The notes below the pieces were generated by a model, which was not told where the DNA came from, did no database searches, and saw nothing but the letters and a program-made list of their open reading frames with translations. Shown here piece by piece: positions 31,022-36,008 of a DNA stretch of 64,000 nt. The translations under genes were made by a program, and so were the position numbers. Source of the stretch: Croceimicrobium hydrocarbonivorans (lineage in GTDB: Bacteria; Bacteroidota; Bacteroidia; Flavobacteriales; Schleiferiaceae). Location: the NCBI RefSeq assembly GCF_014524565.1, contig NZ_CP060139.1, positions 1,929,501-1,993,500 of the forward strand, given 5' to 3'. Each line of letters begins with the position of its first letter. Position 1 is the stretch's first letter.

Positions 31022-34000
31022 TCAGAGGCTTTTCTTTCGCTGATACTCGAGTTCTTCACGAGTAGGTTTATGTAGCTCAGTACCAAAATAGAGAGGAGTG
31101 CTCAGGCTGCTGCGCGTACCCAGGGTGTAGCCATCTTTAATCAAATAGGCCACTAATTGATAGCGATGGCTGGCCTCCGGCAGCTGAATGGATATATAGG
31201 GCCCTTTTTCCCGCAGTCGCTTGATTAAAGCTGGCTCATTAAAATTATCGAGCTTGAGGAGGTACCAATCTACTTGGACCTTCTCTTCATCCAAGGCCCG
31301 CCACTTTCCATTTTCTTTGAGCAAGCAGAGATAGGATTGATTTTGCCCGCTAAAGGCCGCTCTTGCCAAAGGAATCACCTTAAACTCTTCGGCCCTGCTT
31401 AGTGGATTAGTAGCCGAGTCTATCTGAGCGGCTTCCAACTTAGCATAGCCTCGCTTTTTGTATCCATCCAAATTCTTAAGGCCTTGTAAAGCAACATGGC
31501 TGGAGAAGATATCATCTTGCCAGGCATTAAAGCTAACCCTAAAACCCATTTGTGCCAGGGGAACACCTAAATCCGGGCCAACCGATTGGATAAAAAGCGG
31601 ACTTTGACATTGCGCCATCCTTTTTTGCAATTCGGCCAAATTGGTTTGTCCTTCTTCAATATTTACCCCAATGCCATCCAAATATCTAGCTCCAGTAAAG
31701 ATGCTTCGGGCTTCTTCTATAAGGTTTACGCTAAAGTTTAATTCGGCAGAAAGCGGTCGGGTAGAATCCAGCGCTTTTATTTCCTTACTCATTTTATCTA
31801 ACCAGCGGATAAGATGATCTTCTTCGTACAAGAGCTGTGGTGCTTGGTAGAACTGGGATAATTGGCTAAAGGCTGCTCCGCCTAAATGCCAGGCCACAAT
31901 ACTCTTTTCATCACGATTATCGCGAACTAAGTCCAAAATGCTTTTTTCGACCGCTTGCAATTCTTCATTCTCCGGACTGAAGCTTTTGATATCGCCGATG
32001 TAGAAACAATAGCTGATTTCCAGTCCTTCTTTTTCCGCTTCCTTAAATATGTTAGCATCGTAAAAGCTCGGTCCGTAGCGATTGATATGGCTTATGCCGA
32101 GGCTTTTCATTTCCTTAAAATCCGATTCAATAACCCTGCGGAATAGAGGATGCTTGGTGTGTTTCCAATCCAAGCCTTTGTAATAATTGCAGGCCATTTT
32201 TGTTTGCGAGTAGAATGCGGATTTAAGAGGGGTGATTTTATTTTCTCGCTCCACCATTTGGGGTTCGGGTACCTGGTTTTGTCGGAAAAATCGGAAGGGC
32301 CTGCTTAAACCATCAGCAATAGGGTCTTTAGCATCTGTGCAAAGGATACCGCTAAAGTTCGGATAGAGACTGCTTATACTGTCCAGGAGATCCCGATTAG
32401 ATTCACTTACCGTTTCTTTAAAACGTAGTACCCAAGGCACATCATTTTGAAAACTGGCCCGCACTAAATAGGATTGGAGGCTGTCTAAAGGATTTTCACT
32501 TTGGAGCATCACCCCGGCATCAATTTCAATAAACTTCAAATATTTAAAACCGGGGAAGGAGGCTTCAATTAGTTCAGGGCTGGGGCTGTTATAAACCAAC
32601 ATGAGGTTATTGATCCCTTCCAGATTAAAGAAGTGATTTAAGTATTCCCAGAGTTCTTTATGTTTCTTTTGGATTTGTAGACTGGAACTGGCTCCGTATT
32701 CTGGAAAAGGAGCTAAATAAATGGGATGTTTAAAGACTTTAATGGCCTCGGACCAAATACCAAGTTGGCTATCGAAATGTCCATCCAGGAGAAGTTTATG
32801 GAAAGCTTTTAAGCTGATGCTGTCATTCTGGATTTGCCAATGGATATAGGGGTATTTCTGATTGCCATTGCAACGCAGTAAAAATCCTTCGATTGGGATA
32901 GCCGGACTTAAAAAGGGAAAGGAGCGATATTGAACCCGATAGGGTGATTCTGCATTTTGATCGGCCACAAAATGTTGCGCCAATTTGGGGTCTTCCTTGG
33001 TGGTTTCCATATTGGTGATATCGCGCTGTAAGCTTATATACCAAAGGAAACCAGCCAAGAGAATAACTATTGGAAAAGCTACTGATCGTACAAATTGATA
33101 GGAGCCGTGGCGCACCTTCCAAAACCAATCTTTAAGGTACCAAATGCGAACAAACAATCGCTCGAGCCAGGGCACTTCCTTTTTATAGGCTCGCCAGCGA
33201 TTTTGCATGCTGGCAAAGAATACGAAACCAATAAACAGGATATTAAGACCCGCAAATCCCGCCATAATTAGGTTATAGGGATTGAAGTCGCGCCAAAGGC
33301 CATAGATAATTGCCGCAATGCTTAGGCCGGCCATGGCCAAATTGGGGATATTTAAGCGCAGGGTATTTTCCTCTTGTCCATCTTTGGGAGTAGGATTATA
33401 GGGCACCTTGCGGCGAAGCAGGGTATATACAAAACCCAAGGCATGAATCCACCAGGTACCAATCGATATCAGTCCTCCCTGTACGTGGAAACCCCTTTCG
33501 TCTTCTTCCATAACCCATTTTTGGACATAATGTCGAATGAGGATAATGAATACCAAGAGCGGCGCTGCAAAAGTGAGGAAGTAGGCCAAGCCCACTTGCA
33601 TGGGAATGTAAGAGCTAAACAGCGATAAAATGGGGATCATGAAATTGATCAGGAAGAGGAATCCCATGAAATAATGCCAGGGCAGCAGGCCATAATGAAA
33701 CCTTTGTCGCCAGCTTAGTTTGCTGAAAATACGGGGATAGGTGGTGACCAATAATTCAAAAACCCCGCGCGACCATTTAAGCTGTTGCTTGTAATAGGCA
33801 GATAAGGTATTGGGTACCAGGCCTCGGCTTAAAACTCGCGGTACATAAACCGATTTCCATCCCGCGGCATGCAGCTTCATGGAGGTGTGCATGTCTTCGG
33901 CGAGGCCCGGAGCATGTCCGCCAATGCTATCCAAAGCCTTGCGGCGGAAGGTACAGTTAGCGCCAATCGCTTGAGCAGTGCCATAACTGTTCATGCTCAT

Positions 34001-34690
34001 CATAATGGGCCCGTAAAATTGAAAAGTTTGCTGGGCCGAGGCTTTGGCGATGAGGTTCTCGTAAATATTGTCGTAGGCCTGTACTACTTGAACAAAGCCC
34101 ACTTCGGGATTTTGGAAGTGTGGTAAAACCCAATCCAGAAAGTCAGGAGCCGGAACATGGTCCGGATCCAAAATCAAGCAGATATCTCCCTTTGCATGGG
34201 TGTATATCGCATGATTGATATTTCCGGCTTTGGCATTGGTTTTTACTGTGCCACGATATACATGCACAATCCCAAGGCGTTCGCATTGCTCTTTAAGGTA
34301 AGGGTCGTTTCCTTCGTCGCAGAGATAGGTGGTATGGGGATAACTAATCGCTTGAATCGCTTCCAGCGTGTGGATGAGCATATCATAGGGCTCTCCCGGA
34401 ACGAAGGTGGTAAAGATGTCTACCGAAAAATCTTGCTTTAGCGCTGGGGTTTCCGGTATTGACATATCCCAGTAATGGTACCATTCGTATAAAATACGCA
34501 GGCCCATATATCCCAAAGAAAAGAGTAAGGGATAGTAAAAGTAAGGGTAGCCGATGTACTCCTTCCTGGTAATTTCGGTGAAGAAAAGTACCATAGCTGC
34601 AATACCCACTATGATCATCGCCCGAATTACGAAACGCTGGCGCGGACTAGGCGCAATAACAGGCTTGGGGCGACTTCTATTGTACCACAT
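31022..34690 (-). CDS. Processive GT2 glycan synthase (cellulose synthase-like) fused to degenerate glycosidase-like domain
   Basis: I start at the ATG at 34690 (1222 residues), since the upstream alternative is a TTG at 34714. Two N-terminal helices (about 20-75) precede a GT2 core: CDEGNDPYLKEQ, the metal-binding DPD (D175, D177), the general-base region LAEDMHTSMK (E265/D266) and the exit motif QQLKW (302-306), all in the order of BcsA/curdlan-synthase-like enzymes. About six more helices run to residue 553. The remaining about 650 residues should be periplasmic. The first part (about 600-790) faintly resembles a GH26-type barrel. Residues about 840-1110 align by eye with the adjacent lipoprotein glycosidase, but its two catalytic Glu positions read LGGA (G938/A939) and FIQS (S1036). 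I infer synthesis of an extracellular beta-glucan. Confidence 0.85.
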   Translation of the reverse strand: MWYNRSRPKPVIAPSPRQRFVIRAMIIVGIAAMVLFFTEITRKEYIGYPYFYYPLLFSLGYMGLRILYEWYHYWDMSIPETPALKQDFSVDIFTTFVPGEPYDMLIHTLEAIQAISYPHTTYLCDEGNDPYLKEQCERLGIVHVYRGTVKTNAKAGNINHAIYTHAKGDICLILDPDHVPAPDFLDWVLPHFQNPEVGFVQVVQAYDNIYENLIAKASAQQTFQFYGPIMMSMNSYGTAQAIGANCTFRRKALDSIGGHAPGLAEDMHTSMKLHAAGWKSVYVPRVLSRGLVPNTLSAYYKQQLKWSRGVFELLVTTYPRIFSKLSWRQRFHYGLLPWHYFMGFLFLINFMIPILSLFSSYIPMQVGLAYFLTFAAPLLVFIILIRHYVQKWVMEEDERGFHVQGGLISIGTWWIHALGFVYTLLRRKVPYNPTPKDGQEENTLRLNIPNLAMAGLSIAAIIYGLWRDFNPYNLIMAGFAGLNILFIGFVFFASMQNRWRAYKKEVPWLERLFVRIWYLKDWFWKVRHGSYQFVRSVAFPIVILLAGFLWYISLQRDITNMETTKEDPKLAQHFVADQNAESPYRVQYRSFPFLSPAIPIEGFLLRCNGNQKYPYIHWQIQNDSISLKAFHKLLLDGHFDSQLGIWSEAIKVFKHPIYLAPFPEYGASSSLQIQKKHKELWEYLNHFFNLEGINNLMLVYNSPSPELIEASFPGFKYLKFIEIDAGVMLQSENPLDSLQSYLVRASFQNDVPWVLRFKETVSESNRDLLDSISSLYPNFSGILCTDAKDPIADGLSRPFRFFRQNQVPEPQMVERENKITPLKSAFYSQTKMACNYYKGLDWKHTKHPLFRRVIESDFKEMKSLGISHINRYGPSFYDANIFKEAEKEGLEISYCFYIGDIKSFSPENEELQAVEKSILDLVRDNRDEKSIVAWHLGGAAFSQLSQFYQAPQLLYEEDHLIRWLDKMSKEIKALDSTRPLSAELNFSVNLIEEARSIFTGARYLDGIGVNIEEGQTNLAELQKRMAQCQSPLFIQSVGPDLGVPLAQMGFRVSFNAWQDDIFSSHVALQGLKNLDGYKKRGYAKLEAAQIDSATNPLSRAEEFKVIPLARAAFSGQNQSYLCLLKENGKWRALDEEKVQVDWYLLKLDNFNEPALIKRLREKGPYISIQLPEASHRYQLVAYLIKDGYTLGTRSSLSTPLYFGTELHKPTREELEYQRKKSL

Positions 34691-35951
34691 AGAAAGGAAG
34701 GTTAGCCGCAGCAAAATGCCCGGAGCGATCGTGAATACTTACATAGAGCCTAAAAGGACCAGCTTTGCCAGGAGTTTTAAAGCGAATTTTCTGACGATCA
34801 CTGGCGTACTCAATCAGATCAGGCAGAGGCGGCGGGCTATCAGCTTTTAAGAAAAACCAATCCTCGGTGCGTATAGACCAACGAATTTCTAAACTGTCTT
34901 GGTTTAGACTTTCGGGGATTTCCAATTGGGCTTCATGCCATTGATTGCTTTCAAACCAAAAGTCATTGGCATTAGTGCCATGGTCAATTTTAAGGTTTTT
35001 GATTTTTGGAATTTCTGGCACCGGGCTATCGCCATATTGCTTTGCCAGGGCGTAATAAAGAGCGCTGCGTTCTCCATCTTTAGAGAAGACATTAAACCAG
35101 GTGTCGGTTTGTTCGTGGCGCCAGCCCCAATTGAAAAAGAGTGCTCCTAAAAAATTAGGATGCTCGCGCGGGAGCTCCTTAAATCGCCTTCCGGTAATTT
35201 CCGCTTTTTGACTGCTGCTGGGTTCCAAAGGGGCACCCCATTTTGTCCATTCTGTTTCCCAGGGCCCATTTTCACCAAATTCCCCAATTAAGAAAGGTTT
35301 CGACCAGAGAAAGTCCAGGTCATTCATATCCTCACTTAATTTGGGTAAGCGCCCGAAGGTGTTGATGATGAGATAATCCAGGCTACGAATTTTCAGGGCA
35401 AAATTGAGAATAGCCTTATGGCCATAATTGGCAAAAGCCGTTCCCACAGGATGTTCCGGATCTCCGCTGCGAAGTGAATCTAAAAGGCGATTATAAGTGC
35501 TGGAGAAATCAAAATCCATCAGATCGTAAAAGATCAGCTCATTGCCCAGGCACCAGCTTAGAAGCGCCGGATGATCGCGATACTTCCTGCCTAAAACTGC
35601 TAGTTCCTTACTCAGCTTAACTCTTTGCTCTTCGTTTTTATAAAGCCAAGGAACATGACTCTTAGGAAGCCAAATGCCGGCAACTACTTTAAGTCCAAAA
35701 TGATGAGCGCTATCTAAAATGGATTGCAATCCGGTGGTATCGTAGGTGCGGATGGTGTTGGCACCTATACTATGGGCCTCCTGCAAATGAGTATGACCAG
35801 CTAGGCCTTTAATTTCATGTACCTGCCCATCAATGGTAAAGCGTGCCTGTCCTTCGATTTCTTGAATCTGAACCCTGGCATCTTCAGGCCTCTGGTATTG
35901 ACAGGAAGCTAAGAGTCCGCAAAGAAATAGTATTAGTATAAGGCGAAGCAT
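34677..35951 (-). CDS. Lipoprotein glycosidase/transglycosidase, TIM-barrel (GH2/GH5-clan-like)
   Basis: The product has 424 residues. The signal peptide ends in the lipobox LLASC (C17). The TIM barrel opens with KGLAGHTHLQEAHSIGANTI then RTYDTTG, the strand signature of clan GH-A enzymes. The acid/base pair is LGNE (N137-E138) and the nucleophile is LIGEFGENG (E224), so it appears active. A beta-sandwich-like end (about 325-424) follows. It overlaps the synthase gene by 14 bases. The likely role is trimming or transglycosylating the polymer made by the synthase, at the outer face of a membrane. Confidence 0.85.
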   Translation of the reverse strand: MLRLILILFLCGLLASCQYQRPEDARVQIQEIEGQARFTIDGQVHEIKGLAGHTHLQEAHSIGANTIRTYDTTGLQSILDSAHHFGLKVVAGIWLPKSHVPWLYKNEEQRVKLSKELAVLGRKYRDHPALLSWCLGNELIFYDLMDFDFSSTYNRLLDSLRSGDPEHPVGTAFANYGHKAILNFALKIRSLDYLIINTFGRLPKLSEDMNDLDFLWSKPFLIGEFGENGPWETEWTKWGAPLEPSSSQKAEITGRRFKELPREHPNFLGALFFNWGWRHEQTDTWFNVFSKDGERSALYYALAKQYGDSPVPEIPKIKNLKIDHGTNANDFWFESNQWHEAQLEIPESLNQDSLEIRWSIRTEDWFFLKADSPPPLPDLIEYASDRQKIRFKTPGKAGPFRLYVSIHDRSGHFAAANLPFYVVQ

Positions 35952-36000
35952 GTCAGCGTCTTATGTCAGTTGGTGGGGGATTGATACTATTGGCATTTTA

Positions 36001-36008
36001 CAAACTTA
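36001..36008 (-). promoter_or_regulatory. -7 box of the glycan locus
   Basis: The minus strand reads TAAGTTTG, an exact TAnnTTTG match, 49 bases upstream of the lipoprotein ATG. The rest of the 304-bp gap (35952-36255) shows no ORF, RNA gene or strong terminator. Confidence 0.5.

Follow-up and report, generated by a model that had tools for sequence, protein, structure and literature searches.

Degraded glycosidase domains on a GT2 synthase of Croceimicrobium hydrocarbonivorans and the GH158 lipoprotein gene that accompanies it

What does a membrane polysaccharide synthase do with the fold of a glycosidase whose catalytic residues are gone, when an intact enzyme of the same family is encoded by the gene next to it? 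The question is raised by a 64,000-nucleotide stretch of the Croceimicrobium hydrocarbonivorans genome (contig NZ_CP060139.1, positions 1,929,501 to 1,993,500; hereafter the window), in which the gene of a family 2 glycosyltransferase (GT2) synthase overlaps that of a glycoside hydrolase lipoprotein of family GH158. An earlier account made from the letters alone (the sequence-only reading) had described the C-terminal domain of the synthase as a dead copy of its neighbour. The kinship and the loss of catalytic residues are confirmed here, a second degraded domain is added, and the idea of a copy is replaced by that of an old fusion whose catalysis was, most simply, lost once in a clade of Bacteroidota.

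The two genes and the fused domains

The features of the locus are as follows, with coordinates in the window.

34677..35951, minus strand: GH158 lipoprotein gene, 424 amino acids, with a lipobox LASC ending at Cys17 and the catalytic N137, E138 and E224 present.
31022..34690, minus strand: membrane GT2 synthase with C-terminal, probably periplasmic glycosidase-like domains, called from the open reading frame (ORF), the DNA and Pfam and NCBIfam GT2/CelA-like matches.
33020..34690, minus strand: GT2 catalytic and membrane part, residues ~9-565, with DPD at 183-185, ED at 273-274 and QQLKW at 310-314, matching BcsA 5ej1 with E 8.3e-34.
32225..32992, minus strand: GH26-like domain, residues ~575-830, with E672 in the acid/base column and F765 in the nucleophile column.
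31415..32209, minus strand: GH158-like pseudo-glycosidase barrel, residues ~836-1100, with A947 and S1044 in place of the two catalytic Glu and W1065 retained.
31049..31414, minus strand: immunoglobulin (Ig)-like beta domain, residues ~1101-1222, as in BuGH158; it is a beta-rich segment of the model, within the GH158(Pro) match.

The mechanical ORF of the synthase, 31022-34714, begins at TTG. The ATG at 34690 is the likelier start, and from it the synthase gene overlaps the end of the lipoprotein gene by 14 nt.

By BLASTP, the resemblance between the synthase and the lipoprotein is weak (E 0.018 over 86 residues). Chance is ruled out as its cause by the alignment of profiles, in which hhalign compared 15 fused C-terminal domains with 18 lipoproteins (probability 99.3%, E 3e-20, over the barrel and the Ig-like part), and by the structural match. 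In an AlphaFold2 model built from 27 sequences (mean predicted local distance difference test, pLDDT, 83.2; predicted template modelling score, pTM, 0.83), residues 273-648, equivalent to synthase residues 832-1207, superpose on GH158(Pro) 9p26 with a Z score of 25.2 and a root mean square deviation of 3.8 over 332 residues. The same model matches BuGH158 6pal with Z 24.2, followed by GH2-type enzymes from 22.5 downward, and 6pal is also the best Foldseek match of the fused-domain model. Thus, the three motif pairs from which homology had been proposed are present, and the predicted TIM barrel belongs to the partner's family. The extent first given to it (~840-1110) is right for the barrel and too short for the GH158-type unit, which runs through the Ig-like domain and covers residues ~832-1207.

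Only its fold makes the fused domain a GH158. Lipoprotein N137/E138 align with synthase G946/A947, and E224 with S1044, and the catalytic Asn-Glu and the nucleophile Glu are all absent from the fused domain. The loss of both catalytic Glu on the synthase and their retention in the lipoprotein had been anticipated correctly; residue assignments depend on aligning distant sequences, with identities as low as ~20%. A Trp occupies the column of lipoprotein W275 in all 58 GH158 rows, including the 15 fused domains that, like that of the window, have no acid/base Glu (the dead group), and the pair W1065-Q1066 is invariant in those 15 barrels.

The lipoprotein, for its part, is GH158 by the sequence criteria tested. 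With phmmer it matches BuGH158 6pal (E 5.2e-40, query residues 35-423) and GH158(Pro) 9oro (E 8.9e-40) over nearly its full length, and the profile of its family reaches 5.3e-109 with 9oro and 7.3e-97 with 6pal. Its N137, E138 and E224, the catalytic Asn-Glu and the nucleophile Glu, match N136, E137 and E220 of BuGH158, an endo-beta-1,3-glucanase made of a barrel and an Ig-like domain, in which mutation of any of the three to Ala abolished activity according to the available text (PMC7157763). The three residues are conserved in 25/25 GH158 genes of synthase loci and in 10/10 other GH158 genes, within 3.5-10 kb of which no GT2 of this kind occurs. One of these ten, L105 (genome G426), groups with the synthase lipoproteins and probably has its partner on another contig. 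The lipobox-column Cys is missing in some GH158 proteins of synthase loci (L050-L052 and L057). A search with the lipoprotein alone as query found one near relative, at 93% lipoprotein identity. GH158 domains also occur at the C terminus of proteins of 813-972 amino acids that have no GT2 (L170, L171 and L172), as other GH158 fusions.

The sequence-only reading was right about one fused pseudo-glycosidase and overlooked another, lying between the last membrane segment and the GH158-like barrel. A second copy of GH158 is ruled out for this middle domain (hhalign probability 0.1%), which is GH26-like instead: the profile of 16 middle domains finds the GH26 lichenase Endoglucanase H (2bv9) with E 6.5e-36, ahead of GH26 mannanases and xylanases, and a structural search returns 2cip among its matches (TM score 0.65 on the target). 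Against the Pfam GH26 cut-off of 20.2 bits, the window domain fails with 13.2, while the homologues L013 (34.6) and L048 (27.7) pass. In the window, one of the two catalytic Glu is lost: the acid/base column has E672, but a Phe (F765) occupies the nucleophile column. Another Glu, E767, stands two residues beyond F765, and the alignment may be shifted there. A second GH26-like match exists in the window's own genome (G000:C1:1601380-1601769, E 7.5e-8, in a 572-amino-acid frame).

Relatives, linkage and the loss of catalysis

Relatives were sought in 99 near relatives and in samples, partly overlapping, of 395 genomes each of the phylum, class and order. Matches were found in 7/99 near relatives. 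The phylum search gave 10/395 genomes with the C-terminal domain on a frame of synthase length, the class search seven such dead-group and eight live-group frames, and the order search seven dead-group frames; with the dead-domain profile, no dead-group frame beyond the seven known genomes was found in the 395 genomes of the order. A live-domain profile matched 192/395 genomes of the phylum, with some long frames among the matches listed. Inspection of ten matched stretches yielded one further two-domain GT2-GH26 synthase (G165, L174) and nine stretches without such a GT2. In all, 27 synthase loci were examined: those of the 15 dead-group genomes (window, G001, G002, G004, G006, G013, G173, G195, G196, G214, G263, G282, G305, G352 and G426), eight live-group loci (L089-L096) and four without the C-terminal domain (L055-L058). 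Weaker matches of the phylum, class and order searches lie outside these loci, and two-domain synthases are under-sampled, because loci were picked by the C-terminal region. The synthase of G165 (L174:4206-6728), outside the counts of 27, is the second of its kind in the genome of L058 and has an adjoining GH158 gene.

The GH158-type domain occurs on these synthases in distinct states. No dead-group member has the acid/base Glu (A in five, D in four, T in three, and S, H and N in one each); four of the 15 have Glu at the nucleophile column (L051, L022, L050 and L052), and the other 11 have neither Glu. Both Glu are present in 7/8 fused domains of the live group. The remaining one, L092 (G762), has D-E at the acid/base position, Ala for the nucleophile Glu and an in-frame TAA in the fused domain, and its synthase gene is apparently in decay. 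Homologues retaining both Glu had been named in advance as evidence against a pseudo-glycosidase; they exist, and attest to the past competence of the fold, and the window's copy is still without the residues. Among 24 synthases scored for the GH26-like domain, ten keep both Glu, six keep one and eight keep none; G002 (on L014) is omitted from this scoring, as are L053 and L054, which have no GH26-like domain. Directly downstream of the synthase in the latter two genomes lies an ORF of 559/562 amino acids (L053:5469-7148 and L054:7991-9679), for which no Pfam family was found.

A GH158 gene adjoins the synthase, or lies 2.5 kb away (L090), in 25/27 loci, and the gene pair is thus conserved: 14/15 dead-group genomes, 4/4 two-domain loci and 7/8 live-group loci have it. 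The dead-group exception is G426, where the synthase contig measures 3.3 kb. The live-group exception is G600 (L089), the sole synthase genome in which no GH158 gene was found apart from the synthase (no other GH158 match occurs in the genome); there, neither catalytic Glu is missing from either of the fused glycosidase domains. Dead-group loci have the lipoprotein gene first and the synthase gene second on one strand in 14/14 cases, with overlapping mechanical ORFs in 12 of them; in the live group, gene order and strand vary. Distances between GT2 parts and those between lipoproteins are correlated over 26 loci, with L105 taken as the partner of L022 (Mantel r 0.89, 0/9999 permutations as high). 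In G003, of the window's genus, the start of a lipoprotein gene abuts the tail of a synthase gene (L016, G003:C1 ~2764304-2764604). This remnant is a scar from the loss of the gene pair, and is followed by the downstream neighbour of the window locus, which we take to be RidA-like.

The history of the fusion can be read from two trees. The dead-group rows of the GT2-part tree (27 rows in all) form a single clade (support 100/99), and the states require three changes for the C-terminal domain and five for GH26, counted as live when both Glu are kept. In that of GH158 (58 rows), the dead group is again one clade (100/100), on a stem of length 1.39, and unstarred branches (89/95 and 87/81) place it inside the live fused domains. 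A branch of length 2.11 (100/100) splits the 23 fused rows from the 35 lipoprotein and free rows; L095 and L096, which are live fused domains, fall across the midpoint root with weak support (60/76). The description of the fused domain as its partner's copy does not survive this deep separate branch, and local duplication of the lipoprotein is unsupported as its origin. Loss of catalysis is a derived state, because both Glu are present in 7/8 members of the sister group. On the simplest account, the synthase would have acquired a GH158-type domain long ago, and this domain would then have lost catalysis once. The GH26 nucleophile is lost in all four scored members of the window's genus (window, L010, L011 and L012) and L013, beside that genus in the GT2 tree, retains both GH26 Glu; most simply, this second loss would have come after the death of the GH158 domain. 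Members of the dead clade fall in six family codes and reach beyond one class. L050 (G195, of the window's order) groups with G196, G263 and G426, outside the window's class, for both synthase and lipoprotein in both trees, which suggests horizontal transfer of the gene pair.

Topology, product and the possible role of the retired domains

The synthase is a GT2 (Pfam Glyco_trans_2_3, 3.6e-26) that scores 161.1 bits with the NCBIfam CelA model, below the cut-off of 699.1, and neither a PilZ nor a GH17 domain is among its Pfam matches at E up to 1. Hydropathy gives one clear hydrophobic segment before the GT2 domain and five after it, the last at 544-562. The GT2 domain of BcsA-type synthases is cytoplasmic. 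With this side fixed, the odd number of crossings would therefore put the glycosidase-like domains outside, and the basic loop 501-543 ahead of the last segment (10 K/R versus 3 D/E) agrees; counts over the 15 residues that flank that segment on each side do not differ (3 and 3). Both domains would thus be periplasmic, at the exit of the chain, with the reservation that interface helices can escape hydropathy plots.

The DxD, KAG and ED motifs of BcsA-, CrdS- and BgsA-type synthases are present in the window as DPD, AKAG and AED. Three others, QxP[H/Q], QxxRW and FxVTxK, which are described as fully conserved in these subfamilies in the available text (PMC6821405), appear as QVVQ, QQLKW and YNPTPK. 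The window's motifs are intact across the 27 aligned synthases, with small variants (QQIKW in L054, ATPK in L053 and L054), apart from L022, whose row is truncated by the contig end and so is missing the four N-terminal motifs. As for the product, a beta-glucan is most likely, judged from the two hydrolase families on the synthase, because BuGH158 is an endo-beta-1,3-glucanase and the nearest GH26 structures are lichenases. That both fused families are best matched to beta-glucanases suggests a beta-glucan with 1,3 links.

Collectively, these elements can be read as a system of two genes for polysaccharide synthesis in Bacteroidota, in which the GT2 would polymerise the sugar and thread the chain through its membrane helices, to meet the GH26-like and then the GH158-like domain placed after the last helix, in the periplasm. 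In the window's clade, the acid/base Glu of the GH158-like domain would have disappeared in a single event, followed, within the window's genus, by the nucleophile of the GH26-like domain. Both folds would have been retained without catalysis, to hold, orient or gate the chain as it emerges, and the lipoprotein encoded by the overlapping gene would cut or transfer it. This whole reading, with non-catalytic exit domains in cis and a working glycosidase in trans, is the one we favour, at somewhat less than even confidence. The anatomy, the homologies, the lost residues, the gene linkage and the constraint in one close pair are demonstrated; what the polymer is, the topology, the binding of the chain and the split of tasks between the two proteins are deduced.

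Among the points in its favour is constraint on the retired domains. Between the window and G001, the ratio of non-synonymous to synonymous substitution rates (dN/dS) is 0.030 for the dead GH158 barrel (bootstrap 0.014-0.050), 0.049 for the barrel of the lipoprotein (0.027-0.082) and 0.016 for the GT2 with its helices; the Ig-like parts give 0.022 on the synthase and 0.165 (0.063-0.382) on the lipoprotein. These values are rough, from a single close pair with dS of 0.26 to 1.3. Against G004, dN/dS is saturated for three of the four synthase domains, and the values for the Ig-like domain (0.283) and the lipoprotein (0.141) were not used. Over longer spans, the picture changes. Identity between dead fused domains is below that of the matching lipoproteins in 74/78 pairs of the dead clade (mean 30.7% versus 38.5%) and in 12/13 comparisons made from the window alone, while live fused domains are the less alike in just 3/21 pairs (43.7 versus 39.2%). 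Constraint on the dead barrel thus appears to persist and to be relaxed after catalytic loss, which fits a simpler retained role (binding, docking or structure), though slow decay keeps some plausibility. That the barrel may bind, guide or sense the chain, as first proposed, is compatible with the one-pair constraint and the invariant Trp, and less so with the faster divergence over long spans.

Several points weigh against chain-handling by retired domains. The long-span divergence just given is one, and recurs between the window and G004, with 51% identity for the dead barrel and 64% for the lipoprotein. The GH26-like domain is the fastest part of the synthase (dN/dS 0.081, 0.045-0.122, window versus G001) and is absent in L053 and L054. 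In L051, L022, L050 and L052, Asp at the acid/base column accompanies Glu at the nucleophile column, so weak catalysis is possible there, and these fused domains may be intermediates or weak enzymes. The three departures from GT2 motifs may mean a product other than beta-glucan, and common descent of the hosts may account for the Mantel correlation. The dead clade represents a single evolutionary event, so its lipoprotein-first operon counts as one observation, as does the G600 case. Finally, the whole analysis is computational, the genomes are a sample, and glycan binding by the pseudo-domains is conjectural.

Among the alternatives, the one that survives best changes the part of the lipoprotein. 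With the same anatomy, it would act as a clean-up or editing hydrolase instead of a tailoring transglycosylase, a realistic prospect to which we give a little less than even weight. BcsZ is a hydrolase of this sort in cellulose synthesis. BuGH158 and BfGH158 are both characterised as hydrolases in the available text (PMC7157763), but the linked glycosidase of GH17-GT2 synthases, the closest functional analogue, is given as a transglycosylase (PMC10237404), and sequence cannot decide between the two.

The main rival to chain-holding itself is that the dead domains are protein-docking scaffolds, keeping the GH158 lipoprotein, or some other partner in the envelope, at the exit with no contact with glycan. 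The upstream, co-directional lipoprotein gene in 14/14 dead-clade loci where the contig allows, the correlated distances of GT2 and lipoprotein, and the free variation of acid/base-column residues in the dead clade (A, D, T, S, H, N) all speak for docking. However, the barrel keeps W1065-Q1066 in 15/15 members at a column where live enzymes also have Trp, and the four two-domain loci have a GH158 gene with no fused GH158 domain, indicating that docking through this domain is not generally needed. Docking is, on balance, unlikely, though it deserves to be taken seriously.

A remnant decaying after catalytic loss, with no function of its own, is improbable. It would explain why dead domains outpace their lipoproteins in divergence when live ones seldom do, the length of the dead-clade stem (1.39), the speed of the GH26-like domain and its loss from two relatives, and the in-frame stop in the fused GH158 domain of live-group L092; yet the dN/dS of the dead barrel, in its one close pair, lies very far under 1 and inside the range found for the barrel of the live partner, and the domain is retained in all 15 members, across six family codes and beyond one class. 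Least probable is that the fused domains are still active with a substitute carboxylate (Asp at the acid/base column, D1067 after W1065, or E767), as the N-D and E at the catalytic columns of L051, L022, L050 and L052, the W-Q-D of 14/15 barrels (W-Q-E in one) and the window's E672 and E767 might suggest, because the window has G, A and S at three positions each reported as essential in BuGH158 (PMC7157763, available text).

Known systems and significance

The nearest counterparts of the proposed cis and trans arrangement are the pseudomonad 'Orphan' and NdvB GH17-GT2 synthases, which make cyclic beta-glucan and whose linked glycosidase domain is a transglycosylase (PMC10237404). In both cases, a BcsA-like GT2 membrane synthase is fused to a TIM-barrel glycosidase fold, there periplasmic at the chain exit and here probably so; the gating motif ends in TPK (FFRTPK there, YNPTPK here) and the acceptor motif in Q (QSPQ there, QVVQ here), and the available text reports no PilZ domain (PMC10237404), as none was found in the window synthase. 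The differences concern the glycosidases: a single N-terminal, active GH17 domain there (PMC10237404), two C-terminal, catalytically degraded domains (GH26-like and GH158-like) and a separate intact GH158 lipoprotein here. The DxD, KAG and ED motifs and the several membrane segments after the GT2 domain are shared with BcsA, CrdS and BgsA, from which the window synthase differs, as far as the available text describes them, by its three variant motifs, the absence of PilZ and its glycosidase-derived C-terminal domains (PMC6821405).

Among the glycosidases, BuGH158 (6PAL) and GH158(Pro) (9ORO series) resemble the lipoprotein nearly over full length, with N-E and E kept, and share with the fused domain the barrel and Ig-like fold without its loss of catalytic residues; BuGH158 belongs to a glucan utilization locus, whereas the genes here adjoin a synthase. 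The GH26 lichenase Endoglucanase H/CtLic26 (2BV9, 2CIP) is the PDB family that the profile of the middle domain matches best; unlike it, the middle domain is fused to a synthase and has Phe at the nucleophile column in the window. A looser parallel is the synthesis of osmoregulated periplasmic glucans in E. coli, where glycosidase folds (OpgG/OpgD, GH186) are likewise tied to periplasmic glucan synthesis and one paralogue has low activity; in the available text, these are separate beta-1,2-glucanases of another family, unfused to the synthase (PMC10514313).

Fusion of a GT2 synthase to an active periplasmic glycosidase is therefore known, and the new part is the degraded two-domain fusion with an intact GH158 partner. 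No description of a GT2-GH26-GH158 synthase or of a GT2-GH158 gene pair was found in literature titles and the beginnings of abstracts, a search that left subscription papers mostly outside. It is tempting to propose, though more doubtfully than the two-gene reading itself, an undescribed GT2-GH26-GH158 family of Bacteroidota, in which catalysis would have moved from the synthase to the lipoprotein in trans and the retired domains would have become a device for handling or gating the chain.

On one conserved GT2, the fused domains come in a range of states, with both live, only one live, neither live, or one deleted. This natural series makes testable the role of a pseudo-glycosidase in polysaccharide export, as well as whether catalysis can shift from a domain of the synthase to a protein of its own. 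The loci also suggest that a number of Bacteroidota make an uncharacterised glycan, which is probably a beta-glucan.

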